DNA of 64,000 nucleotides from Polytrichum commune (Eukaryota > Streptophyta > Polytrichopsida > Polytrichales > Polytrichaceae). The translations under genes and the position numbers were made by a program. Below are positions 20,489 to 51,600 of the stretch, in pieces; position 1 is the first letter of the stretch; each line of letters starts with the position of its first letter. The notes below the pieces were generated by a model. The model saw only the letters and a program-made list of their open reading frames with translations. It ran no database searches and was not told the DNA's origin. The stretch lies in NCBI GenBank assembly GCA_950295325.1, contig OX485808.1:26184527-26248526 (forward strand). The letters run 5' to 3'.

Positions 20489-21683
20489 GCAATTCAAATG
20501 GGGATGACTATGAATGAAGTGCTTATTCATGCCATAGCCACTTGGCTTCAAGGGTCTTTAACCCCTAAATGCCCAAGAAGCCAAAAAGTGGTTGCGAGCA
20601 TTTTTCAAAGATATAACTTTCAAGGCAAACTTTTCTCTTTTCTTGTATTTTTTTCTTGCACCTTGACACAATAAACTTATGCACCATCTAGAGCAAACGG
20701 GTTGAAATTTTAGATCAATGACTCTAAGATATGGACCTTGAAGTGGCTGGAACCCTTCATTCTTTCTTTGTTACATAATTAGCTATTTGGGAAAATACTA
20801 ATATCAATGACATGATTTTTTTTTCCTACCACATTATGCAACTCAAATTTTTAGCCAACCATCTCAAAGATCATGTGATTTTGATACAATTTGAAAACTT
20901 TATTATTTTCTGAAGGAAAATGCTTGTAAAATGATTTGACAGAGACCAAGATTATAAATTTGCATTCCAACCACACATACGTGATTCAAAATGAACTCCC
21001 TAGACCTTTCTCTTGTACGCCAACACAAAACAACGTTGCCAATTCACACTTTATACTACCTCTTTGATTCAAGCCCAATGATCGGGGAGATTTTTGGGCA
21101 TAATCGGTTGACATCCGAGTGTTTGCAAGTCCAACCAATGACATGTTGACATTTGTGGGACCATCTAAGTTTGGATAAATCCGGATTAGAGCTTAGATTG
21201 GATAGAGTATAGAGTAGAACATGTTTTTTCGATAAAATAGGAAAACTAGAAGTAGTTAACGTATTTAGGAAACTAAACCCTTGTGCATCTGGTTAAGGCG
21301 ATAAAAACAGTTAATCCGGAACCTTCTCAAACAACTGGAACTGGGTTGGAATAACCATTGGAACAATTGTCTAGGTAACCGGGTAAGAGCAACCGTTAGG
21401 ATAACCGCCGGGCTCCCGGAATGACAGTATGATCTACATTTGGGATAAGGACAGTTGTACAAAGGAGAAACGGTTACCGCCAACAACCACCGGGTTAGGC
21501 TGAGAGGAGGGGAATGGGAGGGGTATTTGAAGGAATCGAAACCCTAAAAAACTCACTTTTCGCCTAGGCAACTTTGTAGAAAGAAAGAATGGTGAGGTAT
21601 CATTGTTGTCGGATCATTAGTAGTTGGATTGCTGAGATTCTTGGGAAGGCATGAATAGGGTTGCGGTAGGAGAGTAGTTCAGA
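20489..21683. other. non-coding; possible 5' leader of the interrupted repeat ORF
   Basis: From about 21290 the base composition rises in GC, with CGGTT/ACCGG-rich sequence. GGGGTATTTGAAGGAATCG at about 21517 resembles ACACTATTTGAGGGGCTCGG at about 39424. The similarity could reflect divergent long terminal repeats, but I could not align them convincingly. Confidence 0.35.
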
Positions 21684-22022
21684 ATGCCGCATATTAAGGA
21701 GGAAGAGGACCTCATTCTGATTCTGGTTAGGAACGTAGTACCCGCCATCCCCAACTGGGAGGCAGAGATGTGAGACTTGGTGGAGGATCTCACCCGGATG
21801 GGGTGCGAGGGACTCTTCACGAAGCCTTGGAATTTGCGGAACGAGGCCATGTTGAGAGAGTTTTTGTTTGAGCGAGGGAACCAGTCGGAGAGAACGGTAA
21901 AGAGGGATCCGGAACATTGGACCATGGATGCATGGGTAGATGTCTACGGCTTTGCGCCAAGGAAAAGGGAGGGATGGGCGAGCCGGAAGGATACGTACTT
22001 CTTGGGGAAGTTTAAAGCAAAG
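21684..22022 (+). pseudogene. 5' half of a degraded repeat-family (gag-like?) ORF, interrupted by the hAT element
   Basis: The reading frame starts at the ATG at 21684 (MPHIKEEEDLILILVRNVVP), hits an in-frame TGA at 21771 and then runs open through FTKPWNLRNEAMLREFLFE and MDAWVDVYGFAPRKREGW to the insertion point at 22022. Removing 22023-37562 joins it in the same frame to the segment starting at 37563 (reading ...GKFKAK | NDPNDGFYLVDC...). This confirms that both halves were one ORF. I do not recognise a named domain. The size, the later helical region and the Ser/Pro/Lys-rich tail would fit a retroelement structural protein, which is a guess. TGA in place of an expected CGA fits a C-to-T change. 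Confidence 0.65.
22015..22022. repeat. left 8-bp target-site duplication of the hAT element
   Basis: AAGCAAAG, identical to 37555-37562. An 8-bp duplication is the hAT signature. Confidence 0.95.
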
Positions 22023-22105
22023 CAGGGTTGTCTATTGTGTCGTGACGGAGGGTAATCCCGACATAATGTCGTGCCGTCACGACACGTATCCGTCACGACA
22101 TTATG
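22023..22105. repeat. left terminal and subterminal inverted repeats of the hAT element
   Basis: After the 13-bp TIR come TGTCGTGACGG, GCCGTCACGACAC and TCCGTCACGACA, including a palindrome CGACATAATGTCG. These are CCGTCACGAC-type repeats in both orientations, mirrored at the right end. Confidence 0.85.
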
Positions 22106-22250
22106 CCGGATGCTGTCTTTATCCTGACGGACTTGAATTTTACCGATTTTTTTGTGTAATTACATTAACCCATTTCTGACACGTAGGATTTACAATGTCC
22201 ACGTGTGATGACATGTCAGCAAAGTAAAGGTAAAGTGGGGAAAAATTTAC

Positions 22251-22660
22251 TAGAGCCCGTCCGCCCCCCCGTCCGCCTCCATTCCCAACCCCCGTTCGCC
22301 CCCGTTCCCTCCCGTCCGCTCCCGTTCACAATCCCCGTTCGCCACCGTTCCCCCCCGTCCGCTCCCGTTCCCAACCCCGTCCGCTCCCCCCCTCTCCTGT
22401 CCGCCCCCCCCCCCCCCCCCGTCCGTCCGCTCCCTTGTCCACTCCCTTGTCCGCTCCCCCCCCCCCTCCGTCCGCTTCCCCATCCGCCCCCCCGTCCGCT
22501 CCCCCCCGTCCGTCCGCTCCCCCTTCCGCTCCCCCGTCCGCTCCCTCGTCCGCTCCCTCGTCCGCTCCCCCCCCTCCGTCCGCCCCCCCGTCCGGTCCCC
22601 CCCCCCCTCCGTCCGCTCCCCGTCCGCTCCCCCCCCCCCCCCCTTCCGTCCGCTCCCCCG
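22251..22660. repeat. GC-rich tandem array upstream of the transposase
   Basis: About 410 bp built almost entirely of GTCCGCTCCC / GTCCGCCCCC units with CGTTCCC in the first part. It is stop-free in several frames on both strands, which creates spurious proline-rich and glycine/arginine-rich ORFs of 77-241 codons. It ends about 12 bp before a TATA box. Related arrays lie at 29529-30190 and 36372-37290. Confidence 0.9.
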
Positions 22661-22672
22661 TCCGATTCGAAT

Positions 22673-22680
22673 ACTATAAA
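22673..22680 (+). promoter_or_regulatory. candidate TATA box of the transposase gene
   Basis: CTATAAAT follows directly after the GC-rich array, about 235 bp upstream of the transposase ATG. The first ATG in the leader frame and a 3' splice-site-like TTTGTATTTGCAG (22888-22900 region) suggest a 5'-UTR intron. Confidence 0.5.
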
Positions 22681-22911
22681 TTGAGGGTTCAAGGTGCCAT
22701 TTTTGCCTACACTGACATAGTGTGTCTCAAGTCTTTTGATTCTCCTTTGAGGAGTGAGGATTGAATGCGTGAGACCCGAATGCAGAGGATACTTTGTCCA
22801 ATCTAGTGACTGTGAATTAGGGTTGCCCTTGTGGCACTCTTGAACAGGACCTAGTATGCGATCAAAGTTACTTGCTCTAACTTGTTTGTATTTGCAGGTT
22901 TTGTTGAAGTC

Positions 22912-24885
22912 ATGCCACGCCGAAATGATGCATGGGATCATTGGTACGAGGATAAGGGGATGGTTCCCGGTAGATCACAAAGGCAGGTTAAATGTAGGTT
23001 TTGCCCGTTCGTCATATCTTACCGAGGAAATAGAATGTTGGCCCACCTTGGTTATAGACCTCCTGTAGGGGGTGCTTGTGATGTTTCCACATGTAGGATG
23101 GTACCCCCGCATATTAGGGTCTTGTTTGAACATTGCGGAGGCATTGTGCCCTTACATGTAGGCATTGTAAATGAGGACTCTCCGGTGCCAGATATTGTAC
23201 CTCTGGAGCCTATTATAGCGGACTCCGTAATTAGTGAAACAGAGCCTTTGCTTATGTCCCAATCCACTCAACATTCTGATGTTGTGATATATGGCTCACC
23301 TCCTCGTGAACTACGTCAACTCAACATAACGGAGGGGTTCAATGTGTCAACAAAACAACTCCTTGATAGAGCATGGGCAACGGCTTTTTATGAAGCTAAC
23401 ATTCGTTTCAACATTGTGAGACATCCTGCATTTGTTCATGCTGTGCGTGAAACTACCCGTCATCGAATGCCAGCCTACACACCACCATCGTACAATGCCA
23501 TCCGTACGAAGTTGTTAACTGATAAAAAAATTGACCTAGATAGGCAAGTGAAGGAGAAGATGGGGAATTCCGTTGAAAAATACGGTGTTACAATATGTTG
23601 TGATGGATGGGACAACGTGCAAAACCGACCTCTCCTAAACGTTCTCCAATGCGGCACAAAGGGAGATGCTTTCTTGGGTACCATTGATACCACGGGAAAT
23701 CACAAGGATCATGTATACGTTGCTGCTCAAATTCAACCATTTGTGGAAAATGTTGGTCGACATAATGTGGTCCAGATTTGCACCGACAATGCCCCAGTTA
23801 TGGCCTCCGCTGCTCGCGACTTGATTCAAGCAAATCCCGATCTATATTTTCAAGGATGTGCTGCGCATTGCCTAGATCTCCTCTTAGAAGATTGGGGGAA
23901 GGAGGAATGGGTGAAAAAGTTGGTAAAAAAGGCGCGCCATATTTGTGTTTTTATCAAAAACCATCATGCTTCTCAAGCTATATTCCGGAGGTTGTCACCA
24001 AATCTCTCACTCCGCCTACCTGTAGAGACCCGTTTTGCAACGAACTTTATCATGATAGATCGTCTTCTTCAAGTACGCAATGCTTTGGAAAGAATGGTGG
24101 TTGATGAGGATTGGCCTACTCTAATGCGTGATATGAGGAGGAGATCTCGCACCTCTTACATGAAGGGCTCTGCTGTGCGAAGCTTTATACGTTCTGATGG
24201 ATTCTGGAACACGTGCGAAAATTTCTTGTATATGGTGATCCCGGTTGTTAAAGCTCTTCGTGTATTTGATGGCAAGGCGCCTGCAATGGGAATGGCTTGG
24301 AGGGTCATGCATGATTTACAAACCCATATTCGTGGATTCAGTAAACCTCCATTTCGCTTAAGCCCTGAGCTTGCTGCAAATGCTATGCTAACGTTTCAAA
24401 ATAGATGGAGGTTGATGTTGAATGATCTACATTGGGCTGGAGCGATGTTAAATCCATTTCTACGTGGTTGGGCCCCACTCCATGAGGATGAGAATTCGAG
24501 GACAATCCTAAATCGAGTTCTTCGCAGGCTTGCTCAACATGAGGACACTTATGTCCAAATCCTCCACCAGTACCAAGATTTCCTTGAAAATCGAGGGCCT
24601 TTTGCTGATTCTACTGACCCGAGCGTGCATGCCGCACCTCTCCATGAATGGTGGGATGCAATGGGAGGTGGAGCTAAAGCCCTCCAAACAATAGCAAGAC
24701 GTATCCTTGCACAAGTATGTTCCGCATCCGCATGTGAACGCAATTGGAGCATGTACTCATATGTTCACAACAAGAGTCGCAATCGCTTGAAGCATAGTCG
24801 TGCCAAGACCTCGTCTACATATATACCAATAGTAGGCTCATTCGACATCGGAGGGGCCCAAGACCTGCGCAATGGTACGAATTGA
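22912..24885 (+). pseudogene. hAT transposase (BED zinc finger, DUF659, hAT dimerisation), frameshifted near the C-terminus
   Basis: It encodes the enzyme that would excise and insert the element. The start is the first ATG, giving MPRRNDAWDHWY. Residues 1-70 form a BED finger (C28 and C31 in CRFC, H45 in AHL, then CRMVPPHI). The DUF659/RNase-H core has CDGW with D231 and TDNAP with D292, followed by CAAHCLDLLLEDWG. The C-terminal dimerisation domain runs to ILAQVCSASACERNWS (E609) and NKSRNRLK. Immediately after HSRAK the family pattern (DLVYIYTN...) continues one frame away, so a single base is missing at 24805-24807. As it stands the frame ends out of register at 24885. The catalytic residues are all present. 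Apart from the one-base loss it is undamaged, unlike the cargo genes. Confidence 0.92.
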
Positions 24886-26096
24886 ATGAGGTCCATTCTG
24901 ACGATGACCTTGACGAAGAAGATGACGTGGATCCAAATGATAGGGCCGGAAATGATGATGACAACAATGTTGATGACATCGACTTTGATTTGGATGACCT
25001 CGATTCCGAGAATCATGATTCAGAAGATGAGGATGGCAATGGTAGTGATGGAAACCTTGGGGTGTTTAATTTTGATGAACCGGATGTCCCCCAACATAAC
25101 GACGGAATGCATGACGATCATGAGGGGTCTATTGGAGGACCGCCTTTTGAAACTCTCCACACTGGACAAGGGTTTCGCCCTGCCCATAATGTTGCTATGG
25201 GGGCAAGTGAGAATGTAGGAATTGAAGTAGATTCCTTGCAACCTCGGAGCGATTCTCTTTCTTTTGGTGAAGGTGACAATGTACTACCCGCAAATGAGCC
25301 AACGCACGTTCAACAGGATCCACTTCCAGCCCGAGTACATTCTGAATCCATGGACGCCTCCCGCATATCCAACCATCGTATAGAAGATCAAACGCCCAAT
25401 GTTCCTGAAATACCTACAACTCGATTCCGTGCTCTTCAAAGAACTGCATCAACCTCTACGGTGCAAGTGCATGCACAAGGTCAACGTCGTCCTCTCACTC
25501 GAAGTATTGCCAATACTTCTAGATTGGGTGTTTCACGTACAACTGCGGTGGGTGCTACTTTGGTTGCTATACACAATGTTTCAAGAAATGTTACTACAGA
25601 GGCGCCACGTCGTCAATCTGTTCGTCGACATGTTGTTGACAACATACCAATTGCAATTCCATCCGCATCAGTTTCACTTCCACACAGTCAATCCAATGGA
25701 ACAGGTGGCCTTGGAGTTGGAGGCGGAAGTACAACGGGGGATGTTTTTATAGATGGAAGTAGAGATGAAGTGCACTCAAGTCGTGGTACGGGTGGAGGGC
25801 GTCAGAGAACTACGAGAGGTGTCAAACGTACTAGGAAGAGGTATCAGGGAAGATCGCTTCCGTTTACTGCTGAAGACTACAATGAAGACGAGGGTAGACC
25901 ACATCTAGATGAAAATGGCATACAGGATGCAGAGGGCTCCCGGCCGACCAAGAAGATAATTTTCTCACAACGTGACCGAGAGTTGCATCTTCGGAGCGCG
26001 ACTCCCCAAACGGATGATGATTGCAGCACAGACGAGTCTGAAGAGGACCCAAGATGTGTCGAAGCAAATGATCCCACAGTACGGATTCGAACGTAA
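24808..26096 (+). pseudogene. C-terminal acidic extension of the hAT transposase (out of frame with the body)
   Basis: In this frame the dimerisation domain finishes (DLVYIYTNSRL...PAQWYELNEVHSDDD) and passes without a stop into about 400 further residues. The residues after 24882 form a strongly acidic segment (DDDLDEEDDVDPND, NVDDIDFDLDDLDSEN). Next comes a Ser/Gly/Thr-rich linker, then a basic stretch with RTRKRYQG and RPTKKIIF, and an acidic end with DDDCSTDESEEDP, with a stop at 26094-26096. An ATG overlaps the upstream stop at 24882-24885 (ATGA). I read this as a frameshift scar rather than translational coupling, because the protein homology crosses the junction. The tail is long for a hAT transposase; a role in nuclear localisation or protein contacts is only a guess. 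Confidence 0.75.
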
Positions 26097-26795
26097 TGGT
26101 TTTGAACAAATGTGGTATTTCGGTGCTCCCACGTACTCCCATAATTTATTACTTACGTCAAAATTGATACAAGTTACAACCTTAGGGCCTTCGGTAAGAC
26201 ATTTAGACCACAAAGCGAACGTTACCTTCGAAATTGTAATATTTTATTATAGTCATAAAATTATTTATTGCATGTTTTTTAAAATTTTGAAAATACAATA
26301 TGGTTGTCAACTTAGCATTGCAATTAATTTCCAATAACATGTTATGCCTTTATTAATTACTATTTTGTATAATTCTTACTGTGAATGGAGTTTTATGTTT
26401 ATTTATTGAGCTTCTTAAAGAATATGCTTTTATAAATATTGCAATCCCCTATTGCTCGATTGTACATGCTTCGTTGGTGACATCCTCTTTTAGAGGACCT
26501 TTCTATCCGTTTTATATAATTATATCTTTATGTGGTATTCAATATTGACTATGTAGTCAATAATACTTTTGGTTAGACTATCATATGAATTACTAATATT
26601 CAAGTAAGTTTTTAAAATTTTCGAATAACATTAAAACATGTGGCATCCATATGTTATCTTTTACACGATCTTAGAAATGACAACTTGTCGGTAAATCCTC
26701 TTTATATTACATATACTTTGAACATGAAATATGTTCATTGTGTCCAAAGTCTTCATCCGTTCCTATACAACTTCCTAAACATGGTACAAAAATGC
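26097..26795. other. AT-rich spacer between convergent genes
   Basis: It separates the 3' ends of the transposase (+) and the RING-like gene (-). AATAAA-type signals are present on the minus strand near 26400-26410 (TTTATTTATTGAGC on the plus strand). No ORF. Confidence 0.5.
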
Positions 26796-27178
26796 CTAAT
26801 CCGAATCTGAATCGAGGTCTATTCTAGCTGAAGTAGATCCTCGTCGTGCTCGTGATGATTCCCCCGCTTCCATGCTTCGCGTTGTTCCACGGGTGAGGTA
26901 TGGACGACTACCAGGAGACAATGGAACGGTATTACGTGGTCTAGGCCCACCATTTAGCCATCTCAATACCGCATCATCCGCAACTCTATGCAAGAGTGCA
27001 TCAATTGCAGCCAACTGCAGCCTGTTCTTCTGGTACCCCACCTCTAACTGCAATTCATATCTCGGATCCCGTTCCGTAGGCATGTCATCTGCATCTTCTT
27101 CCAAATCATGCTCCGATACTGATTCGAGACCTGCTGCATTGTACCAAGGAGGATGAATGCCTCTCCTTAATTGTCTAC
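26796..27178 (-). pseudogene. C-terminal part of the RING-like cargo gene
   Basis: A minus-strand frame entered by a one-base shift near 27170-27178 reads RQLRRGIHPPWYNAAGLESV, then EEDADDMPTERDPRYELQLE. A helical stretch (KNRLQLAAIDALLHRVADDA) follows, then a Ser/Arg-rich tail ending in DLDSDSD and a stop at 26796-26798. The preceding frame (27224 side) reads on through a TGA to NDIGIQPVDN and stops at 27167-27169. Crossing over between those frames restores continuity, so this is the tail of the same gene. No known domain. Confidence 0.6.
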
Positions 27179-27850
27179 TGGTTGAATCCCAATGTCATTC
27201 AAGAGTTTGGTACAAAAATCTTTTCAAGCCATGATCGGGGGGCTTGTTGGGATACAACTCATCTGCAACATACAAAATTTGATGTGCATTCCGTGTCCAG
27301 TCGCCATCTCTGTTCTCGTGCCATAGCTCAACCTTGGCACAATTGTATAACCAACTCCACTCAACATTCTCCCATCAAACTCTTGAAAATCGAAGGGAAA
27401 GTCCCATGGCTTTAAGACCCAGTCGTTAGGCATGTAATCCCGAAGGCCAAATTGGAGGTACAAACGAGGGTGGAAGGGTGATCTGCAATGAGGACATTGG
27501 CGTTTCTTGATCATATTCCCTATTAGACATTGTGGATGGAATTGGGCCCCACATGATCCAACTTGATAGCATCCCTCTGGGCCAAATGGACATTGGCAAA
27601 TCGCACATGCGGTTCCGTCGAAGACCATTGTATGTGGATTTGGCCATAACAACTCACCCCTCATGCGGAATGGATATTCATGCACTTGGGTCACACCCCA
27701 ATGGTGATCTGGGTCGGTCACTTGACGCCAATCGATGCTCCCGTTTGGCATTGTCCACTCATTATCCTTATACCACCTACTAGGATACATCTGCTCATCT
27801 TCTGGCCATGACGTGAGCATCATATTCCGCATTCTCTGATTGCGGTTCCA
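27179..27850 (-). pseudogene. RING-type zinc-finger segment of the cargo gene
   Basis: It is in frame with the upstream coiled-coil segment across a TAA at 27851-27853. After a Trp-rich region (WPEDEQMYPSRWYKDNEW, WRQVTDPDHHWGV) comes CAIC-QCPFGPEGCYQVGS-CGAQFHPQCL, then about nine residues and CPHC. This is a RING-like Cys/His arrangement. The position normally held by the fourth ligand His/Cys (CGHxFH) is Ala (CGAQFH), so zinc binding may differ. Family members are usually E3 ubiquitin ligases, but that activity is not shown here. The ORF reaches a TGA at 27224-27226 (expected Trp) and the same frame stays open to 27170. Confidence 0.7.
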
Positions 27851-29098
27851 TTATTTCTGGATGCTCTCAAACTCAGCTTCAAATTGATGAGCCTTGGCCA
27901 TAGCAAGCAATGGGCTTGTCCTCATATTTTTGCGCTCCACAATCGCATCCAACAGAAATTTCTTCAACCTTGCATTCTGCTCCTCCAGTCCGCCAATCTT
28001 GGCTTCGTGATCAACAACCACTTCATTGACCACTTGAAGTTATTGTTGCATGTCCACCACCTCCTTTTGCAAAGCCTCCATCTTTCCTCGCATTACTTCA
28101 TTCCTCATACATACCTCCAGAGCTTGTGACTTTCCAATCTTGGCCTTCTGTAAAGCTGCGTCCCTCTCTGCTTCCAAAGACTGAAGGTTAATTGGTGTAC
28201 TACTTGAACTGCTAGCCTCCCCCATCGTAAGTGTTGCAACTCGATTTTCCAACTCGAAAATCATCATTTTATACTCACGAATTTCCAATGGATGTTGCTT
28301 ACGCAATTCCTCCATTCTGCTCTCCGTCGGGTCCGCTCCATGTTCACCAAGGTTTACCTCGTCTAGGACCTCGTAAACCACGTCGTTGATCAGGTTGTTA
28401 ACCTCGACATTTGCCTCCATGCCCTCATCCATATGCTCAAACGCCTCCTCGATGGCCATCTCCACGTCATTGGCTGGTCGTTTACGATTACGTGGTTTTT
28501 TTGGTTCCCGACCCTCTGGAATTGGGGCCCCAGGCTCGTCCACTAGTCGAGGATTCCTCCTGAACCACTCCGGAACGGGAGTGTATGGAATATCTGGATC
28601 TGTGCATTTAGTGAATGCAATTCCAATACCCCCAAATTTTTGACCATGCAGGGTAGCCAAACTTGACCAATCCACCCTAACTCGCAACACGTGCTCCGCA
28701 TACATCATACACGCCACCGACTTTGGAATTGCACTCTTGGGCCATCTATCCAAATTGGAGATACTTCTAAGTATCGTTAGGAATCTCCATTTTGCCTCCA
28801 CGTCATCAAGCTGCATATAACTCGCACTGATGGCCTTGCAATGTTGCTCGTGACAAGGTCTTGGCCACAACCGATCAAAGTGAGGGAAGCCCACGTACTG
28901 CATTGCAGTCTTCACTGAACACGGTTGTGGTACATTCTCCCAACCTGCCCTGGCTTTTTGGGTGTTGTCATCATAAACATCCCACTCCAACCCAGCGGCC
29001 TTACGTACATGTGATCTGTGACAACCTGATCCCCCACTTGCCATGTCTCCAGATCCTCCACTTGTCATGTCTGGAAATCCTTCACTTGCCGGATCCAC
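27851..29098 (-). pseudogene. N-terminal part of the RING-like cargo gene (acidic and coiled-coil)
   Basis: It starts at the ATG at 29098 (MDPASEGFPDMTSGGSG). A conserved-looking region follows (GLEWDVYDDNTQKARAGWEN, YVGFPHFDRLWPRPC, MQLDDVEAKWRFLTILRS, FGGIGIAFTKCTDPDIPYTP). There is a basic KKPRNRKRP (possible nuclear signal), an acidic segment and then a long heptad-type coiled coil (EIREYKMMIFELENRVATL; NLQSLEAERDAALQKAK; EALQKEVVDMQQ). A TAA at 28040-28042 cuts the coiled coil, but the heptads continue in the same frame (VVNEVVVDHEAKIGGLEEQN) to a second TAA at 27851-27853. With the next two segments the gene would encode roughly 765 residues. It carries three in-frame stops and one frameshift in total. 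Confidence 0.7.
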
Positions 29099-29528
29099 CC
29101 AAATTGTAGTTTCTAATTCTAATCTAGAACTCTAATTTTTAAATTACTAATTGCACTTCATAATAGTGCTACAAAACATCCAAGCATACACTTCAAAATA
29201 GTGTTGCTGTGGAATTAGTTCAAAAATGTCGTTAAAAATTAAAGTACAAAAATTCAGCACACCCTTCGAGCACCCCGCTACCAGCGCTCACGCAGAGGCC
29301 AGTTGACTGGGCGCGTCACAAGGAATATGCCAAAAAGGCAATATGCCACGTCACAAGGGAACGGGTCCACGTGGATCACACCCACAAACAGGTCAGTAAA
29401 AAAAGTATAAAAGGATCCCAAAAAAGGGATCCTTAACTCCTCCGAGCACCCCGCTAAACCCCGCACTCTGTAGTAGAGGAGGGTCATCCGGGCGCTCACA
29501 AGGAGTGGAGTGGGGTATGTAAGTGGTC
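29099..29528. other. 5' region of the RING-like gene
   Basis: It lies between the ATG at 29098 and the GC-rich array. GTATAAAAGG at about 29404-29413 is a TATA-like motif on the plus strand; on the minus strand (gene sense) only a weak TTTTATAC is seen. The perfect 8-bp inverted pair GGATCCCA...AAGGGATCC lies at 29416-29432. Confidence 0.4.
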
Positions 29529-30190
29529 CCCTCCACTTACATACCCCTCCATCCGCTCCCCGTTCCCACCCTGTTCGCACCCGTTCCCTCCCGTCCGCGC
29601 CCGTTCCCCTCCCAGTCCGCGCCCGTTCCCCTCCCAGTCCGCACCCGTTCCCGCCCCGTCCACACCCGTTCCCTCCCGTCCGCGCCCGTTCCCCTCCCAG
29701 TCCGCGCCCGTTCCCCTCCCAGTCCGCACCCGTTCCCCTCCAGTCCGCACCCGTTCCCCCCCAGTCCGCACCTGTTCCCTCCCGTCCGCGCCCGTTCCCC
29801 GCCAGTCCGCACCCGTTCCCCTACGTCCGCCCCCCGCGTTCCCCCCAGTCCGCACCCGTTCCCTCCCTTCCGCGCCCGTTCCCCCCAGTCCGCACCCGTT
29901 CCCGGCCCCGTCCGCACCCGTTCCCAAACGTCCGCCCTCTCGTTCCCTACGTCCGCCCTCTCGTTCCCTACGTCCGCCCCCTCGTTCCCTACGTCCCCCC
30001 TCGTTCCCTACGTCCGCCCCCTCGTTCCCTACGTCCGCTCCCCCCCCGTCCGCTCCTGCGTTCCCCCCGTCCGCTCCCCCCCGCCCCCCTCCCCTTCCGC
30101 TCCATGTTCCCTTACGTCCGCTCCAACGTTCCTATAAGTCCGCCCCATGTTCCCCTACGTCCGCTTTAGAGTTCCCCTGCGTCCGCTCCC
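29529..30190. repeat. GC-rich tandem array upstream of the RING-like gene
   Basis: About 660 bp of units CGTTCCC(C/T)... followed by GTCCGCRCC (period about 19-22 bp) that degrade rightward into CTACGTCCGCCCCCTCGTTCC units. It is stop-free in several frames, giving spurious 126-219-codon ORFs on both strands. It shares both core motifs with the arrays at 22251 and 36372. Confidence 0.9.
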
Positions 30191-30652
30191 GAGTTCCTTT
30201 GAATCTGCACTTTTTAACTTTTTTTGGAAGTTTAGACATAGTCTCGGTTTTTTGGCTCTCAAAAATTCATATGAAGTCCAAAAAATGAGTTCTTGGTATC
30301 CATGGATAGGTAATGAAGTCCTCTACATGAATATGCAATAATATTTCTACTGCACATTCCCGCGTCCCCCCATCCGCACCCCATCTAACTTAGGCCCTTC
30401 GCAAATAATATATGTGACACTAAATATCATTACCGGTGTACTTATCCACACAAAACTAATGAAGGATCCCTCAAGCAACAAAGTAACCAATGTAGTATGA
30501 TGACCAACAAATTATCACCCCTATGGAGACAACGATGTACAAGTAATGACTTTATTATTGCGACGACGGTACAAATGCCCTTTATAAATCACATACATGA
30601 ACAAATCATGCACGATTTAATATTCCACTTCATTCCGTCAACTTGACTTCCG
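30191..30652. other. non-coding spacer
   Basis: AT-rich sequence between the array and the 3' end of the 186-codon gene. No feature recognised. Confidence 0.5.
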
Positions 30653-31213
30653 TCATGACAACCTCGTAGATGCTTGTGGCTTCCGTCGAGGGTCCATTTT
30701 TGGGAGAGGATTCGGTCGAAGTAAATCAACATAGCTAATCGTTCGGTCTTTCATCCGTTCCTTCAATGGTAGCCGATGAGGCGATAATCCTCTCCTCTTC
30801 TTACGAAAAGGCAAAGTCCTTGAAGATTCTCCCGCTACCTTGACATCTTCAATGTCGATTGAAGTCTCCTCCACATCCACATCCCCGGGCTTCTCCAAAA
30901 TATCCGCACACAAATCAATCAGATTATTTAGATCTCCACCCACGCATTGTGTGTTGTCATTCTCCACCGCATCGATCTCAAAGTTGTCCGCATATCGTCG
31001 TTGGTCCTCCTCCGCCCTCATCCTCCAAGCTTGTGTAAATTGTGAGAAGGGAGTCATGACATACTCATCACGAAATCGATCCCTAGCACATCTCTCATCT
31101 CTCTCACGCTCGGTTGATGGATTGAATGGAATATCGGGTTCACCTAAATTTTCTATCTCCTCATCACATCCTAGATCCTCAAACATGTCTCTCTTCTCTC
31201 CCATCTTATCCAT
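30653..31213 (-). CDS. uncharacterised 186-residue acidic/basic protein (hAT cargo), intact
   Basis: This is an uninterrupted frame from ATG 31213 to a stop at 30653, the only undamaged gene in the element. The N-terminal half is highly charged (EKRDMFEDLGCDEEIENLGE; STERERDERCARDRFRDE) with a short aromatic segment (MTPFSQFTQAWRMR). The middle is acidic (VDVEETSIDIEDVKV). The C-terminal third is basic (PFRKKRRGLSPHR; PKMDPRRKP), which would fit nuclear targeting. I recognise no domain or family. A TATA box lies about 45 bp upstream (minus strand, 31255-31265), and no GC-rich array precedes it. It could be an accessory gene of the element or the surviving exon of a longer one. A spurious ORF cannot be ruled out, but the codon usage and charged composition resemble the neighbouring cargo genes. 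Confidence 0.55.
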   Translation of the reverse strand: MDKMGEKRDMFEDLGCDEEIENLGEPDIPFNPSTERERDERCARDRFRDEYVMTPFSQFTQAWRMRAEEDQRRYADNFEIDAVENDNTQCVGGDLNNLIDLCADILEKPGDVDVEETSIDIEDVKVAGESSRTLPFRKKRRGLSPHRLPLKERMKDRTISYVDLLRPNPLPKMDPRRKPQASTRLS

Positions 31214-31254
31214 GATACTCTACCCTCGTTATATGTATGAGTCTAAATACTCTA

Positions 31255-31265
31255 CTTATATATTG
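31255..31265 (-). promoter_or_regulatory. candidate TATA box of the 186-codon gene
   Basis: The minus strand reads CAATATATAAG, about 45 bp upstream of the ATG at 31213. Confidence 0.45.
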
Positions 31266-31439
31266 AGCTCAAAGGACTTTATGAAATATACAATATTTGA
31301 TGTAATCCAAGATGTAGAGGATCCAATTCTCGTTGGTAGGATAAAGACAACACAATAGGAATAAAAAGAAAGTTGGTGAAGTCAAAAAGTTAGTTGCACT
31401 TTTTGAAAAAGTCCCCCGACACCCGCATTGGAAACCTCT

Positions 31440-31765
31440 TTGAAGCTTCTATATTTGATGGGTTGTCCTTTCATTCAACAATTCACATATTTGAGCTTCA
31501 ACCTTAGTGGTTCGTATAGTTTCACAACCCACACGCATTCGAATGTCATATTAATTCAACAAAGTACATATTTGTGCTTCAACCTTTGTGGTCCATATGG
31601 TTTCACAACGCATATTAGGCATCCGAATGCCATCTTCATTTAACAATTCACATATTTGAGCTTCAACCTTAGTGGTTCGTATGGTTTCACAACCCACACG
31701 CATCCCCTTGTCCTTTCATTCGACAATTCACATATTTGTGCTTCAACCTTTGTGGTTCATAAACC
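31440..31765. repeat. tandem repeat, unit about 75-95 bp
   Basis: The phrase CACATATTTGAGCTTCAACC or ACATATTTGTGCTTCAACC recurs four times (about 31485, 31568, 31650 and 31732). Each is followed by TTAGTGGTTCGTATGGTTTC-like sequence and CACAACCCACACGCAT. Confidence 0.8.
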
Positions 31766-31797
31766 TTAAATCCTAAACCCCTAAACCCTAAACCCTA
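31766..31797. repeat. interstitial telomere-like tract
   Basis: CCTAAACCCCTAAACCCTAAA: short imperfect Arabidopsis-type CCCTAAA repeats directly after the tandem repeat. The tract is too short to be a telomere end. Confidence 0.7.
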
Positions 31798-32848
31798 CGT
31801 CATTCCAAATTGCTACCACATATGTGCCGTTGTTTTGTTCTCTCACTCATGTAGAAGTATTTCCATACATGGTTTGAGGGTTTAGGTTCCCAGCTTTCCA
31901 ACGAACCCACCCGCTTTTTTTTACGATGCCTACAACGAAAGTTAAACGTTCGCAAATCGCGAGGACTACTTCAAGTTGGCACAATCTCTACTTAGACATA
32001 TAACTTATGGTATACATTGGGGTTTTTAGAAGGGGTCATGAACGCACGTGATTCTCAAACATAATGTAGAGTGCATCCCCCGAGTTCCTATAGGTTTCAT
32101 AAAGATATCTTACCAACACCTTACACAAATTAGAACATTCTAGAAAAGCAAATTAATATGGTCCACATTAATATTAAACTAGGGATTTGGTGTGGGCTTA
32201 AATTTAATGTGGCCCACATTAGTGATCATTTGGGGGGGGTGCACTATACTAAATCCGTATGAGTATATGTGAGTGTACAAAAGAGGTATTGATTTGAACT
32301 TTGTTGTATTATGTATTATTCTTCACAAAATTATGAGTTGTAGTTATGTAAATATATAGAATAATTTTAAAAAATATACAACATCTCTATTAACTTGTAT
32401 GGTAGTGTCACTAGATTTTATAGAATAAGGTTTATTTTATTTTAGTATTGGCTTAAACTGGTACATAAAAAGAACCAACCACAAGTGAACATACGATCTT
32501 ACATATCATTTGATGGTAGACTTCAAAACAATAATTGCATTAGTTTTTATGACATGTATTACAAATCAGAGTATGGGAGGATTGAATGGAAACAGATGCT
32601 TAGGGACTTGGAAAAAGCCCCGGACGTGGCCTACCATGACATTCTTAACAAATTTGATTTGATTTGGGGGGTCAAAGGTCTTATTGTGACCCGTAGCAAC
32701 TTAGTCCCTACTTGGAAGGATAGGCCTCAAATGAGCATTTTTCTAGATTTCCACTTAGGCTGCGCTGTTTCGGCTGGGTTGGTTGTATTTTCAATTTGAA
32801 TTTTCAATTTGTGCCAAAAAATGAATAAGACATGTATTGCAAATATAA
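31798..32848. other. no gene recognised (inside the hAT element)
   Basis: AT-rich sequence. The plus-strand frame 32485-32799 (104 codons) has a peptide with some coding flavour (GRIEWKQMLRDLEKAPDVAY) but no recognised domain and no partner on either side. It may be a fragment of another element. Confidence 0.4.
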
Positions 32849-33462
32849 GGGCCGGTTCACAATATGGCCAAACTTTGAGAGGTTCAACATTTGGACCAAT
32901 GAAAATGCTGAAATGCCCAAAGTCCGTCCTCTCGGCCTTCACACTAGAGGCCGAAGTCCAAAGGACGTGGCCTCCAAAAGAGCCTAGGTGGCAACACTTT
33001 TAGGAAGTTATGGCGCCAAGAGTTCGGCCTCTCGAGCAAAGATTGGGTATAGCAAAATGCTCAACCCAAACTTCCGTCGAGAGGCAGAACTTTTTTTTCA
33101 TTAAAATAATCAATCATTGACAAGATCTTGGCCGTTAGATTGGAGGGGTTATTTTGAGCAAGGAATAAAGTGGCATGCTCCTTTGAGTTTGGACTTTGGG
33201 ATTGGCCTTTGGAGGCTTCACACTTTGGCCATCCAAGCCGAGAGGCCGTGGGAGTTCATGGCCAAAGGTTTGGACTTTGCGCTTGGCCTTTGGAGGCTTC
33301 ACACTATGCCCAACTAAGGCTACCCTTACTATATTTTATTGGCTATTTTCAGTTCATTTCTTTGGACTATCAACAAAGTTGGGCCACTCAATCGCACGGC
33401 CTCTCAACTTGGACGGCCAAGAATATGTCCAAACTTCCAAAAAAAAGTGATTGTGAATTATA
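32849..33462. mobile_element. candidate TIR element nested in the hAT element
   Basis: The left end GGGCCGGTTCACAATATGG resembles the termini of families A and C. The right end, ACTTCC...GTGATTGTGAATTATAT, is a weaker inverted match. The flanks contain AAATATAA on both sides (32841-32848; 33463-33470), but the right flank is low-complexity. The interior repeats of GGCCTCTCGG/CCGAGAGGCC and TTTGGAGGCTTCACACT support a mobile repeat. Confidence 0.4.
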
Positions 33463-34224
33463 TAAATATAAATATAAGCAATTGTGAAGATTCCTTGTGA
33501 GAGAATACCATTCATAAAATTGCACACCCAATCAAAACTTTATTCAATATCAAGTTTACAAATCACGAGTGAATATGAATCAATGTAACTGGATGTGTAG
33601 TTTTTATCATCCATATTATGGTTGTATTTCATCCGTTAACGTTTACAGAGTCAGATTTACAAAGAAGGGAGTACCATTTTGTTAACTGTTAACACGTTTA
33701 ACATTTATAGTGTGCAATATGTGGGGAGTAGAAGAAAGATAACATTTAGAGATGTTTTGGATCACGTGTATAACCGATATAACTATTGCAATATTGTGCT
33801 CAACTTTAGTTAACTAGATATAACTATAGTTGACTACATTTTGTGGCATACCAAAATTAGAATAAATATAGGTAACTGCATTTTTTCAAGACATATCACA
33901 AACAACTATAGTTAACTTGAACTTAGCACATGGATGTGATAACAACGATGTGAAAGAAGGATGTGGCCTCACGAGAGGCGAGAACCTTGGTTAGCCTCCC
34001 ATAGACTTCTTCTCGATTATGGAGCAAAGGCCTCATGGAGTAGTATGAACATTGCACTAAGATCCATAAACCTCATACAATATACAAGTTTTGTATGAAA
34101 AAATGATGGCTTTATTTACATCTCCAACGGTTACAAAATTGGTATGATTCAAAATTGTTGCAAAAAAAACAAAAAAAATCTATTTTGCAGTGTCACGGAA
34201 GCACATTGTCGGGTTAACCATGTT
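33463..34224. other. AT-rich spacer, 3' of the kinase-like gene
   Basis: No ORF or element ends recognised. Motifs of the type TATAGTTAACTAGA (33808-33925) recur around 41350-41520 and 41760-41850, suggesting a dispersed repeat. Confidence 0.4.
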
Positions 34225-35201
34225 CTATGGAGGGGATTTCAAAATGTTCACTACGTGTGTGATGGTTGACCTTTCCGCTGGATTGGTCTTCGTCAATGAA
34301 TCCAATGTTAACTCAAACCGCATATTCAAGCCATTTGGATCACTGTTTAGCTGAAACAAGGGGGAAGTCGCATCCCTGGCATAAATCTTCTTGCCAAAGC
34401 ACCCACTGAGAAGGACTCCGATAGAAACGTGTGCCTATGTTTCCGAGCCATCCTCACCGGAGAGGTGGATGTTCCACGCTGCCCTCGTACATGGAATAAT
34501 TCTGGACCAGCACAGTTGTATTTTGCTTTGTGCTTGTTCATCTCATCCACTGAATCTTTTCCATAGTTGGAGGGTGCGTCTTCACCTCCCCATGATGTCA
34601 TGCCCCAATCACACACACCAATGTAAACCGTGTTCTCACGGTCTTGTGGGAAATGCAGCATGACATTGTTGGGATTAAGGTCATTGTGCAACACGTCATG
34701 CTTGTGCACTACATCCACAATGCACATTAGAGCCCATGCCAAATAAGCTCGATGCCTTCGATATACAACCAACCGTTTCCGTGCTTCAAAGTCTGTCCCA
34801 GGCATGTGAAGGATTGTGCGCTCGTGGGTTTCCGGAACGCTGAAGTCATAGATCCTCATGTTTTTCAAGGAGCCTCCATTCCACCACATCGAATAGGATT
34901 CGTATGTTTTCATATTGAGGTATTGTAGCTTGATTACCCCAGGATGATCTACTGGACACGCCAATGCTTCAACTGAACGTTCCTTTCGATTCTCCAAACT
35001 ATTTGTGGCCTTCATGGTCTTCCCAGCCCACTCTATCCAGCTAGGGATGAATGATGCTCCATGAATTGCGACTCTCCGCACCACTCCGAAGGTCCCTTGG
35101 AAGATTTCCTTGTCCAAGGCTTTGATCTCCGCATTCCTAGGCAACCATATGACACCCTGCCGGCCCTGAGTGGCAAATGTTGTCTGCCATCTACCTGTCA
35201 A
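34225..35201 (-). pseudogene. protein kinase-like domain of hAT cargo gene
   Basis: The frame reads VIWLPRNAEIKALDKEIFQG, then a Gly-loop-like FQGTFGVVRRV, the subdomain II lysine in WAGKTMKA, a helix C glutamate in ERSVEAL, HPGVIKLQYL, and the catalytic loop VLHNDLNPNNVML (HND instead of HRD; Asp and Asn kept). CDWGM stands in place of DFG. CAGPELFHVRG (APE-like) and FLSESFSVGALA follow. A one-base loss near 34391 throws the frame off; in the next frame the domain continues through FELTLDSLTKTNPAERSTI, including the subdomain XI arginine, to a TAG at 34225-34227. The metal- and ATP-binding residues are present, so the ancestor was plausibly an active Ser/Thr-type kinase. The present gene is broken here and at its N-terminal side. 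Confidence 0.8.
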
Positions 35202-36095
35202 TAAAAATGGGAAGGTTGCGGGCGGATGTTCCTTTTGCTGCTATTACGCCTCTTTTCCAATTCTCTAGCTTCATGTACAGCTCGGACTTTCTGCCACTAC
35301 TACTTCCCTCGCTAGGATGCACAGCATCATATGCCATTGTTGGATTGTAGATTGCTTCCACGGCTTGTTGTTCAATCCAGGTGCCCCAATCGCTCATACC
35401 CTAGCATCTTCAAACTCCGCTCCAGCCATGGCTTCCGTGAGAATAAGAATCAAATCGTTCCTCACCAAATCCAACCCCTTTGTACCATCATTGAGGTATT
35501 TTTTTTCCAAATAAACCATGCTGTTATTTCTAAACCACTCCAACAGCACGACCCTACAATGGTTTCGAGCCTCATCGATCCGCGGGTCGCGTTTGCCTCT
35601 ATTTTTCCTTTTCCTCAATTGCGAACCTGAAACCCCGGACCCCTCCTCCGTCCCTTCCGAAATTGCTGGGCATTTTTGTCCCCGTCTTTCACCATGCTCC
35701 GAACCCTAAGGTACATCACGTGCAGGGCTCTCCGGTCTTGATGTCCGCCGTGTCGGAGATCGTGGTGGCACGGACTCTCCATGAGTGGCTGCATTTATAT
35801 CGGTGGAACTGCCTGAGCTTGGTCCCCTTCCTGTTCTCCCTCTATGTCCACTGTTTCCCCAACTCCCACGTGTTCCACGGCTTCCACGTGTTTGGTTGCC
35901 TCTTGAATGGCCAACTGCAAAGAACTCTTCGTCAAACCGAAAAGGATCTGGACGTGGGGGACGTGCTACAGTGCTTCCACTTCCGGCCTCGCTTCCCGTA
36001 CCCTCTCCAGTATGCGCAAGTGCAATGCTTTGGAGCCAAGCACGGTGCAGCCTCGTATCCTCGTCTTGGTAAGGAGCAATGTCCTCCCCCTCCAT
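35194..36095 (-). pseudogene. N-terminal region of the kinase-like cargo gene
   Basis: It starts at the ATG at 36093-36095 (MEGEDIAPYQDEDTRLHRAW). An acidic/aromatic segment (PFRFDEEFFAVGHSRG) is followed by an Arg/Gly/Ser-rich linker (RGSRGTRGSWGN; PRSPTRRTSRPESPARDVP). A TAG at 35706-35708 interrupts it, but the frame continues with KRKNRGKRDPRIDEARNHCR and VVLLEWFRNNSMVYLEKKYL. A +1/-1 shift at the ATGA near 35394-35397 leads into MSDWGTWIEQQAVEAIYNP and KLENWKRGVIAAKGTSARNL. A second shift near 35195-35205 leads into the kinase domain. The whole gene would be about 620 codons with one stop and three frameshifts. The N-terminal region matches no family I know. Confidence 0.65.
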
Positions 36096-36298
36096 CGTGA
36101 AAAAAACCGCGTGAGTGAGTGAATGTAGAAATGAGTGCGTGAATCTGGAAAAAAAATTGCGAGGGTTCCCCCACAATTTGCCCTGCCCTCCCAAACCCCC
36201 TGAGACCCGCGCGGTGCCGCTGTCCTTGGGACGGCAACAAGGTCTCGGGTCCCTTTGTGGTGGGAGGAGAGGAAAGTGAGGGGAACTAAAACCCCACG

Positions 36299-36308
36299 GC
36301 TTTATATA
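36299..36308 (-). promoter_or_regulatory. TATA box of the kinase-like gene
   Basis: The minus strand reads CCTATATAAAGCC, a canonical TATA box about 205 bp upstream of the ATG at 36095 and about 65 bp downstream (in gene sense) of the GC-rich array. Confidence 0.6.
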
Positions 36309-36371
36309 GGCAAAGGGGAGCACAATCATTATGGGATCCCGGTCGGATTTGACATGGGGCACGAAAAGGAC

Positions 36372-36835
36372 GTATGGGGAACGTGGGAACGCGGGGGCGG
36401 ACGGAGGGAACGAGGGGGCGGACGTAGGGGAACTCGGGCGGACGGAAGGGAACGGAGCGCGGACGGGAGGGAACGTACGGGAACATGGGGCGGACGGGAG
36501 GGGAACGTGGGGCGGACTGGAGGGGAACGCGGGCGGACGGGAGGGGAACGTAGCGCGGACGGGAGGGAACATGGGGCGGACGGGAGGGAACATGGGGCGG
36601 ACGGGAGGGAACGTGGGCGGACGGGAGGGAACGTGGGCGGACGGGAAGGGAACGCGGGGCGGACGGGAAGGGAACGGGTGCGGACTGGGGGGGAACGGGC
36701 GCGGACGGGAGGGAACGGGTGCGGACTGGGGGGAACGCGGTAGGGAACGGGTGGGAACGTTGGGAAACGGGTGGGAACGTGAACGCACGGCGGGGGAACG
36801 TGGGGCGGACATGAGGGAGCTTGGGGCGGACGGAG
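36372..36835. repeat. GC-rich tandem array (G-rich strand orientation)
   Basis: About 460 bp of units GCGGACGGGAGGGAACG with period 17-21 bp. This is the complement of the GTCCGC/CGTTCCC motif seen at 29529. Together with 36836-37290 it forms a large inverted pair. Confidence 0.9.
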
Positions 36836-37290
36836 CCCTCCGCGTTCCCCCCGTCCGCCCCCGCGTTCCCCCGTCCGCTCCAGCGTTCTCCCCCCCGTTC
36901 CCAACCCCCTTCCGCCCCACCCCCATCCGCTCAACCCCCACCCCCGTCCACTCCACCCCCTCCACCGTCCGCCCCACCCCCGTCCGCTCCACCCCCTCCA
37001 CCGTCCGCTCCACCCCCCTCCCCCGTCCGCTCCACCCCCCTCCGTCCGCCCCACCCCTGTCCGCTCCACCCCCTCCCCCGTCCGCTCCACCCCCCTCCCC
37101 CGTCCGCCCCACCCCCGTCCGCTCCACCCCCCTCCCCTGTCCGCTCCACCCCCCGTCCGTCCGCACCACCCCCCTCCCCCGTCCGCACCACCCCCCGTCC
37201 GTCCGCTCCACCCCCCTCCGCCGTCCGCACCACCCCCCTCTCCCGTCCGCCCCACCGTCCGCCCCCGGCCGCCCCACACCCTCCTTAGTC
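36836..37290. repeat. GC-rich tandem array (C-rich strand orientation)
   Basis: About 455 bp beginning CGTTCCCCCCGTCCGCCCCC and continuing as CCCCGTCCGCTCCACC units with period about 21-24 bp. The orientation flips at 36836 (GGGGCGGACGGAG | CCCTCCGCGTTCCC), so the two arrays could fold on each other. All long frames here (155-528 codons) are by-products of the stop-free repeat. Confidence 0.9.
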
Positions 37291-37470
37291 ATATTTTTCT
37301 ACTTTGATTTTAACAAAACCCTAAACACAATGGCAAAATGGTTTACTTGGCAAGGGAAATATGCACATCCACGTCGGCGTTTTCTGCCACATAGGACGCC
37401 ACCTTGGCAAGAAGGTAAGTATTTTACCCACCCTAGTCCATTCCCCCTATGTTGACCCTACGTGGACCCT

Positions 37471-37554
37471 ATTGTGTCGTGACGGAGGGGTCCGTCACGA
37501 CACGACCTGACATGACGGCACGACACCGTCATGACGTCGCGATAGACAACCCTG
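37471..37554. repeat. right terminal and subterminal inverted repeats of the hAT element
   Basis: GTGTCGTGACGGAGG, TCCGTCACGACACG, ATGACGGCACGACACCG and ATGACGTCGCG lead to the 13-bp TIR ATAGACAACCCTG. The CCGTCACGAC-type repeats mirror the left end. Confidence 0.9.
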
Positions 37555-37562
37555 AAGCAAAG
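37555..37562. repeat. right 8-bp target-site duplication of the hAT element
   Basis: AAGCAAAG, identical to 22015-22022. Confidence 0.95.
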
Positions 37563-50630: not shown

Positions 50631-51600
50631 TCTCTCAAAATAGGACGTCTCACGTGCTCCAGCCTCCGCTCATCAATTGTGTTTCTATTCCTGCTGCTTC
50701 CTGCCTCCTCGCGAGGCCTCTCAGGGTGGGTTTCACGGGCCGCTTCCACACGGGTCCCCAAGTCACTCGAGGTCCATCCGTGCACTCTCATACATTGAGA
50801 GCATGGGAGTTGGGACTTACCACTTCACAAGGGGTCCCAAGTCCCAAGTATGACATGGATGTCTACATGGCAACACTTGGTGGAGGTGAGGCTCTCAAAA
50901 TAAGACATCTCACGTGTTCCAGCCTCCGCTCATCAATTGTTTCTCTATTCTTGTTGCATCCTCGGTCTGTGCTAGTAGACTCAGGGTTGGTTTCAGGGGC
51001 CGTTTCCACACGAGTCCCGAAGTCACTTGAGGTCCATACGTGCAATCTCATACATTGAGAGCATGGGAGTTGGGACTTACCACTTCACACGGGGTCCCAA
51101 GTCCCAAGTCCCAAGTCCCAAGTATGACTTGGATGTCTACATGGCAACACTTTTTGGAGGCGAGGCTCTCAAAACAAGAGCTCTCACATGCTTCAGCCTC
51201 CGCTCATCAATTGTGTTTCTATTCATGTTGCTTCCTCCATCCTCGGTCTCTACTGGTGGACTCAGGGTCGGTTTCACGAGTCGTTTCCACACGGGTTCCC
51301 AAGTCACTCAAGGTCAATCTGTACAGTCTCATACATTGAGAGCATGGAAGTTGGGATTTACCACTTCACATGGGGTCCCAAGTCCTAAGTTTCAAGCCTC
51401 AAAATAAGACATGTTCTAGCCTCCAGTCATCAATTGTGTTTCTATTTTTGCTACTTCCCACATCCTTAGCCTCTGCTGGTAGACTCGGGGTTGGGGTTGG
51501 TCCCCAAGTTAGTCGAGGTCGATCCATGCACTCTCATGCCCCAATCACACCAAAGTTACCATCCGGTTCTAACTGTGAAATCGTTGGGGATTATGTTGAG
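50631..51600. repeat. tandem repeat K, unit about 255 bp, 3.5 copies
   Basis: Units start near 50631, 50890, 51167 and 51394. Each begins CTCTCAAAATAAGACATCTC, continues CAGCCTCCGCTCATCAATTG and GTTTCCACACGGGTCCCCAAG, and ends CATACATTGAGAGCATGGGA plus CACTTCACACGGGGTCCCAAG. The third unit is shortened and the fourth is partial. The overlapping ORFs of 62-134 codons on both strands recur once per unit and are artefacts of the repeat. Confidence 0.85.

Follow-up and report, generated by a model that had tools for sequence, protein, structure and literature searches.

The stretch of Polytrichum commune DNA analyzed here (64,000 nucleotides, hereafter the window; G000:C6:26184527-26248526) contains a block of about 15.5 kb in which a hAT transposase lies next to other genes. 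The question is whether this block is one transposon and whether the other genes are parts of it. hAT elements are generally regarded as lean single-gene transposons. An earlier note on this DNA had described the block as an unusual hAT transposon carrying a cargo of genes. Searches covered the assembly of 407.8 Mb in 64 contigs. Window positions 22023-37554 (15,532 bp) were found to represent a single hAT insertion, flanked by a perfect 8-bp target duplication and bounded by 13-bp inverted ends. Sequence comparison makes it likely that the block is a member of an autonomous multi-gene hAT family, whose accessory proteins would help the element itself. The genes concerned are the transposase (gene A, 22912..26096, + strand), a RING/PHD-like gene (gene B, 26796..29131, - strand) and a protein-kinase-like gene (gene D, 34180..36095, - strand). 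New here are the conserved accessory genes and the shuffling of modules; the placement among hAT elements follows from tested features.

The target duplication AAGCAAAG was found at 22015..22022 and again at 37555..37562. It directly adjoins the terminal inverted repeats (TIRs) on both sides, which are CAGGGTTGTCTAT at 22023..22035 (+ strand) and ATAGACAACCCTG at 37542..37554 (- strand) and were recognized by comparison of copies. The identical flanks, the perfect 8-bp duplication and the 13-bp TIRs claimed for this hAT transposon were thereby confirmed. The TIRs of hAT elements often begin with CAGGG, as do the perfect 13-bp TIRs in this family. The 8-mer AAGCAAAG by itself is not rare (three occurrences in the window, 2.76 expected), and the duplication was therefore checked on other copies. 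Among the 16 copies having both exact ends, 14 displayed their own perfect 8-bp duplication, the length typical of the hAT superfamily. A set of 11 copies (eight full ones, including that of the window, and three shorter ones) gave ten with a perfect duplication of their own and one without any. The duplication was perfect in two of three older full copies and matched at 7 of 8 bases in the third. Another copy has two short elements in its flank, and both of these had a perfect 8-bp duplication.

The empty site was compared among paralogous repeats of the same genome. When the window flanks were joined via a single AAGCAAAG, they matched unbroken paralogues at 87% (C2:33265589-33265908) and 86% (C1:50443546-50443867); further matches, some of them partial, were mostly at 69-80%. 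These uninterrupted matches indicate that the element has inserted into a repeat and that other members of this repeat lack it. The subterminal motif CCGTCACGAC, allowing at most one mismatch, occurred eight times in the window compared with 1.05 expected. Five of these copies were exact and all lay within the two termini, as did one of the three inexact ones. The subterminal repeats reported before are thus present, in both orientations, but their symmetry is not strictly that of a mirror.

DNA searches with the left end, the right end, the kinase open reading frame (ORF), the RING ORF and the transposase returned 591, 598, 125, 106 and 127 candidates, respectively, the best 40 of which were 97-100% identical. 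Matches to every tested element part were located on seven large contigs. Seven additional full copies were picked because both ends lay 15-16 kb apart, and three shorter copies were added. The eight full copies, including that of the window, were 15,040-16,266 bp long and colinear, with pairwise identities of 97.96-98.88%. Their length differences were mostly in GC-rich arrays, and one of them was without 714 bp around a small ORF (ORF C). The first 110 bp of the left end differed at 0-1 positions among young copies and at 2-6 in three older copies, and the last 110 bp of the right end at 0-1 and 3-12 positions, respectively. The end pattern CAGGGTTGTCTATYGYGNCGT had 382 matches per strand, while the reversed control pattern had none. 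The genome search for the termini proposed in the earlier note therefore revealed a mobile family: eight full copies share the gene order, and seven have their own 8-bp duplication.

The linkage of the extra genes to the transposase was analyzed at the protein level. The genome search with DUF659 gave 132 matches, among which 104 loci were kept and 28 dropped (at most 70.3 bits, mostly fragments with stops; one locus of 66.3 bits was kept). For the kinase, 121 of 208 candidates were scored and yielded 123 matches, which manual merging reduced to 110 loci; for the RING region, 134 of 179 candidates were scored and yielded 139 matches, reduced to 102 loci. Gene B was found downstream of the transposase and convergent with it, within 25 kb, at 94 of the 104 transposase loci (median distance 3.8 kb; 0.3 expected by chance). 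A kinase locus lay within 32 kb at 91 of the 104, with 1.8 expected by chance. Linkage at about 90% of transposase loci indicates that the extra genes are not one-off cargo. The opposite outcome, in which the termini would occur elsewhere only on transposase-only elements and the cargo would be unique to this locus, was not found. Loci without a kept transposase comprised 19 for the kinase and 8 for the RING region. Annotation should take this into account, since the kinase-like loci (about 110) and the RING/PHD-like loci (about 100) of the genome are largely transposon genes and not host gene families.

The transposase frame extends over 1084 amino acids, stop to stop, in the intact copy at C7:27.94 Mb. 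It encodes DUF659 (121.6 bits, cut-off 34.7), a hAT dimerisation domain (Dimer_Tnp_hAT, 41.8 bits, cut-off 21.4) and a long acidic C-terminal extension. The top match in the PDB was Hermes, which was insignificant (E 0.51). The motifs CDGWD, CTD, GCxxHC and ACE, which may correspond to the catalytic acidic triad and CxxH motif of hAT transposases, were retained in 15 of 15 sequences, with single neighbouring changes in some. A frame of at least 1021 amino acids and a domain without a stop were found at 40 of the 104 loci. We also compared 40 domain stretches from loci beyond the transposase top 40, plus a few weak ones. Their protein identity to the window copy was 86.7-98.0% for 38 stretches and 79.2% for one, and one at 23.8% was unrelated. 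The window copy itself is frame-interrupted in all three genes, gene A being frameshifted near 24805. All three frames are open at two loci, C7:27.95 Mb and C1:32.57 Mb, the latter by frame length only.

Gene B has a frame of 788 amino acids, stop to stop, in the same intact copy and is frameshifted in the window. Its product combines a coiled-coil-like part, read by eye, with a C4HC3 RING/PHD-like zinc finger. The match to zf-RING_2 was 9.9e-6 for the window ORF and 8.5e-4 for the intact copy, both under the Pfam cut-off, and the zinc finger matched RNF38 in the PDB at 5.8e-4. All eight zinc ligands were present in 11 of 15 sequences. An Ala stands in place of the His following the third RING-H2 ligand, and the ligand spacing appears to fit C4HC3 better than RING-H2. 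The zinc finger behind the former RING-like label is thus present, but RING/PHD-like is the safer name. The structure of the N-terminal ORF, predicted without alignment, had a mean predicted local distance difference test score (pLDDT) of 38.6. No host parent of gene B was detected among the 134 of 179 RING candidates that were scored, the sole remote match being a decayed relative of 48-57% identity. This relative (G000:C6:42602930-42603580) has no kept family transposase within 25 kb and perhaps belongs to an older related family.

Gene D has a frame of 710 amino acids, stop to stop, in the intact copy at C7:27.94 Mb. Intact copies encode about 635 amino acids from the putative start, and the window copy contains frameshifts. 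The product matched Pkinase at 3.5e-6. The HNDLNPNN and CDWG motifs were found in all 12 sequences compared, in which the glycine loop and Lys were also retained with few changes alongside. The structure of the window kinase ORF, predicted without alignment, had a mean pLDDT of 33.7. No host kinase donor was found among the 121 of 208 scored candidates, none of which below 78% identity passed E 0.01.

Selection was analyzed by the ratio of nonsynonymous to synonymous substitution rates (dN/dS), with the intact young copy as reference. The p values are approximate, since the counts in the Fisher tests are fractional and copies with frameshifts were read in the frame of the reference. These comparisons also have a single reference in common and involve older copies that are related, and so do not count as independent tests. 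Between the intact copy and six older copies, dN/dS was 0.44-0.63 for gene A (p 1.9e-6 to 4.1e-3) and 0.49-0.58 for gene B (p 2.1e-5 to 3.3e-8). Gene D, compared with three older copies, gave 0.53-0.67 (p 0.028 to 4.6e-5). The intermediate copy oC7_25.1 gave 0.59 for A (p 0.045) and 0.49 for D (p 0.006). The transposase, RING/PHD-like and kinase-like genes thus mostly show dN/dS near 0.5 between subfamilies, and selection has preserved them. ORF C (30653..31219, - strand), which occurs in all three structural types described below, was also considered as a gene and rejected. It displayed no selection signal against the intact copy, with dN/dS of 0.67-1.13 versus four older copies and none significant; one of four cross comparisons gave 0.44 (p 0.017). 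Of the transposase and three opposite-strand genes described before, the transposase and two genes therefore stand, and the third lacks support. The rate dS was unequal between genes for the same copy pairs (A 0.09-0.11, B 0.24-0.29, D 0.13-0.18; two- to three-fold between A and B), which could result from module exchange or unequal gene conversion.

Several results weigh against an element with selected accessory genes. No kinase lay within 32 kb at 13 of the 104 transposase loci, and no gene B within 25 kb at 10 of them. The domain scores were under the cut-offs for both accessory proteins (20.0 bits versus 27.3 for the RING match of gene B, 27.0 versus 31.7 for the Pkinase match of gene D), and one zinc ligand of gene B was lost in 4 of 15 sequences, all from older copies. 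The selection signal was not uniform either: gene B compared with oC7_25.1 gave a dN/dS of 0.74 (p 0.28), for gene D, a type I copy paired with an old type II copy gave 0.88 (p 0.49), and the values for A, B and D in a pair of close type I copies were 0.94, 1.11 and 1.25, respectively. Pooled over the eight young copies, selection was weak (A 0.78, p 0.28; B 0.62, p 0.0097; D 0.90, p 0.66), and single young pairs had a wide range of values. The weak signal among young copies and in the close type I pair fits decay after insertion.

DNA transposons capture gene fragments, and the alternative that survives best is an ancient capture of host RING/PHD-like and kinase genes, which would hitchhike without function for the element (Pack-type capture). 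The genes do adjoin the transposase inside the TIRs, and the lost zinc ligand as well as the neutral-looking kinase substitutions among young copies would be expected of such cargo. However, passive cargo would hardly be kept near about 90% of the transposase loci, be retained through two changes of gene order and preserve the kinase motifs in 12 of 12 sequences. The candidates that were scored (121 of 208 for the kinase, 134 of 179 for RING) also included no host parent gene. Together with dN/dS near 0.5 in most comparisons between subfamilies, this makes capture without function unlikely. Still less probable is that genes B and D are kept by host selection for a useful trait, as in the Starship elements of fungi. 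Coding constraint on the accessory genes by itself does not say who benefits, but the approximately 100 dispersed loci, of which many contain stops or have shortened frames, and a constraint seen between subfamilies and hardly among young copies both fit selection on the element. In addition, Starships are reported with varied accessory genes in few copies (PMC10175614). That the block is no single transposon but an apparent composite of segmental duplication, nested insertions or assembly error is very improbable: tandem or segmental duplication is suggested at a few loci (C1:21.87-21.97 Mb, three copies; C2:35.84/35.93 Mb), and nested insertions by some end pairs 20-36 kb apart, but the perfect 8-bp duplications in 14 of 16 copies, the uninterrupted paralogous target and the finding of matches for each part tested, spread over seven large contigs, speak strongly for one mobile unit.

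The multi-gene family was further characterized by gene order, written with the transposase (T) set as +, K for the kinase and R for the RING/PHD-like gene. Three orders were found. Type I (K+ T+ R-) comprised 10 loci, type II (T+ R- K+) 32 loci and type III (T+ R- K-) 48 loci; one locus had another gene order. These counts include some segmental duplicates, which are not independent loci. The kinases of types I, II and III were 83-89%, 84-98% and 87-100% identical to that of the intact copy, respectively. The window element (22023..37554, + strand) belongs to type III according to copy alignment and gene order. Loci were paired by nearest neighbour within 32 kb, so a few assignments may be wrong; the orders were checked by sequence in two type I, two type II and eight type III copies. 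Ends of the same kind enclose K, C, T, R, in that order, in a complete type I copy at C1:46383500 (14.6 kb); the order in two type II copies is T, R, C, K. Compared with young copies, this complete type I copy differs at 3 positions in the left 110 bp and 12 in the right 110 bp, and by 9-18% in the genes. Four older copies had been considered as 7.8-kb two-gene ancestors without a kinase. This was dropped, as three of them have the kinase on the other side of the transposase; the fourth, at C5:2.2 Mb, has no kinase within 32 kb. The unusual cargo-carrying lineage proposed in the earlier note is thus supported, although "cargo" understates genes that persist through several subfamilies and rearrangements.

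Two small segments bear on how the orders arose. A 281-bp segment (33417..33697, + strand in the window) is 95-96% identical to two type I copies, compared with 84-85% for the adjoining kinase block. A 135-bp repeat (30219..30353, + strand) adjoins the kinase module in type I and in the type II copy oC7_25.1, where it is joined to the counterpart of 33417-33697. The two type I copies and one of the two type II copies have these pieces joined, whereas in type III, including the window, they are split to either side of the C region. This is the pattern that an inversion of the kinase module would leave. For the stretch of about 31760-33417, which was 95-98% identical to oC7_25.1, neither the fetched type I copies nor the older type II copy gave a match. 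This stretch appears to have been inserted into the element later.

Phylogenetic analysis of DUF659 included 46 sequences (38 of 40 fetched stretches and the eight full copies), and only 4 of the 41 inner branches were well supported. Mapping gene-order labels on this tree needed 9 changes compared with 24.3 for shuffled labels, suggesting that gene order follows lineage, loosely. Type III stands next to three type I copies in the DUF659 tree but next to type II by kinase identity. The similarity also changed along the transposase: at reference positions 2101-2400 it was 99.0% to oC4_43.1 and 96.3% to oC7_25.1, but at 2401-3300 it was 93-96% and 98.7-99.0%, respectively. The simplest reading of these sequence conflicts would be module exchange between subfamilies.

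These results suggest how the family may function. The hAT transposase, with DUF659 and the dimerisation domain, would recognize the 13-bp TIRs and the subterminal CCGTCACGAC repeats. It would then move the whole unit by cut-and-paste with 8-bp duplications, a chemistry extrapolated from the hAT family to the structure found here. Genes B and D co-occur with the transposase under constraint and are regular element parts, kept by selection on the element, which presumably benefits from them. Most likely they would aid its spread, whether through modification of a host factor or of the transposase or by counteracting silencing. The GC-rich arrays may be cis targets of such a protein, by analogy with VANDAL elements and their VANC protein. 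During evolution the gene modules were reshuffled into three orders between related termini. These orders provide a natural series for testing the accessory genes and arrays.

Known systems were compared from the literature. The family resembles the hAT superfamily (Ac/Ds, Tol1, Tol2, Hermes) in its 8-bp duplication, short CAGGG TIRs, dimerisation domain, subterminal repeats and short internally deleted copies. It differs in its length of about 15.5 kb and its two further conserved genes. For comparison, Tol1 (4.4 kb) and Tol2 (4.7 kb) are described as encoding a transposase (PMC10175614), and the longest consensus among 276 surveyed plant hAT sequences was 7,144 bp (PMC6027215). A term search of the main text of a review of giant eukaryotic transposons did not return the word hAT (PMC6431247). 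The nearest precedent in the literature covered is ToxhAT of wheat-pathogen fungi, which has 14.3 kb with a hAT-like transposase and several other ORFs between TIRs (PMC6737239; PMC9594970). ToxhAT is described as composite and without identifiable target duplications (PMC6737239). In contrast, the present family has 8-bp duplications and about 100 gene-bearing loci with the same genes in most. No hAT element with conserved kinase-like and RING-like genes was found among the titles and abstract openings listed in searches of the open-access literature. A high-copy 15-kb hAT family with two selected accessory enzyme-like genes implies that the superfamily can evolve multi-gene autonomy.

Two other groups of multi-gene elements show similarities. 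VANDALs belong to the Mutator-like elements (MULEs). VANDAL21, with its anti-silencing protein VANC, is likewise a multi-gene plant DNA transposon with an accessory protein and fast-varying non-coding tandem repeats, and VANC contains DUF1985 (PMC5735166). The present family differs by its hAT transposase and its RING/PHD-like and kinase-like genes, neither a MULE transposase nor a DUF1985 domain was present in the four proteins scanned, and an anti-silencing role is suggested by analogy only. The Starship elements of fungi are also large mobile units with extra genes. They share a DUF3435 tyrosine-recombinase-like gene and have variable accessory genes and few copies (PMC10175614), and DUF3435 was absent from the four proteins scanned here.

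The several large arrays mentioned before are real. GC-rich tandem repeats with GTCCGC-type units lie upstream of the transposase (22264..22664), where the length varies between copies. Repeat and motif scans located further GC-rich arrays upstream of gene B (29544..30189) and, in the opposite-strand sense, upstream of gene D (36392..36833). A fourth array belongs to the right end (36836..37284). Inside the element were 84 of the 91 GTCCGC motifs of the window, and three clusters span the arrays upstream of A, B and D and at the right end. The young intact copy contains 126 of these motifs and oC7_25.1 contains 92; the older type II copy has 17 and the complete type I copy 8. This indicates that the arrays in their present form are a fast-changing expansion of the younger copies. 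It is conceivable, though on balance we are doubtful, that a VANDAL-like kit evolved independently in a hAT lineage. A zinc-finger (E3-like) protein and a kinase would then act with the fast-evolving GC-rich arrays that precede each gene, maintaining expression of the element or licensing transposition, while modules would be shuffled by recombination between family members and the ends conserved. The element also contains an 84-bp tandem repeat (31464..31761), which is longer in the complete type I copy, and beside it a run of 5.3 copies of TAAACCC (31760-31797), a unit resembling the plant telomere repeat.

Element ends far outnumber gene-bearing copies. End pairing used the first 100 end places listed, all on contig C1, and facing neighbours within 40 kb; it gave 30 left/right pairs and left 40 ends unpaired. 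The spacing was below 2.5 kb in 16 pairs, 12-20 kb in 12 and above 20 kb in two, with none at 2.5-12 kb, and an 8.1-kb copy was found on a contig other than C1. Both short and long pairs come partly from the triplicated stretch C1:21.87-21.97 Mb. Two copies of about 1 kb consist of both ends with their arrays and no gene. Such gene-less copies would probably be mobilised in trans. Apparent tandem or segmental duplicates were observed at C1:21.87-21.97 Mb (three copies), C2:35.84/35.93 Mb (two) and C7:11.04 Mb together with contig C56 (two). Their hAT genes have identical scores and stop patterns; the C56 pair was seen in the kinase search only, and the C56 match may be an unplaced haplotype.

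The target of the insertion (21600-22014 and 37563-38899) is a dispersed repeat, for which the genome search gave 148 first-look candidates, and by eye we take its ORFs to resemble Ty3-type gag. Rfam and tRNA scans of the window gave no matches, NCBIfam gave weak ones only, all far under the cut-offs, and outside the element (window 1-22000 and 37600-64000) no other ORF of at least 170 amino acids was listed. A tandem repeat lies there at 50632-51390, with a period of about 260-281 bp, 2-2.8 copies and 80-85% match.

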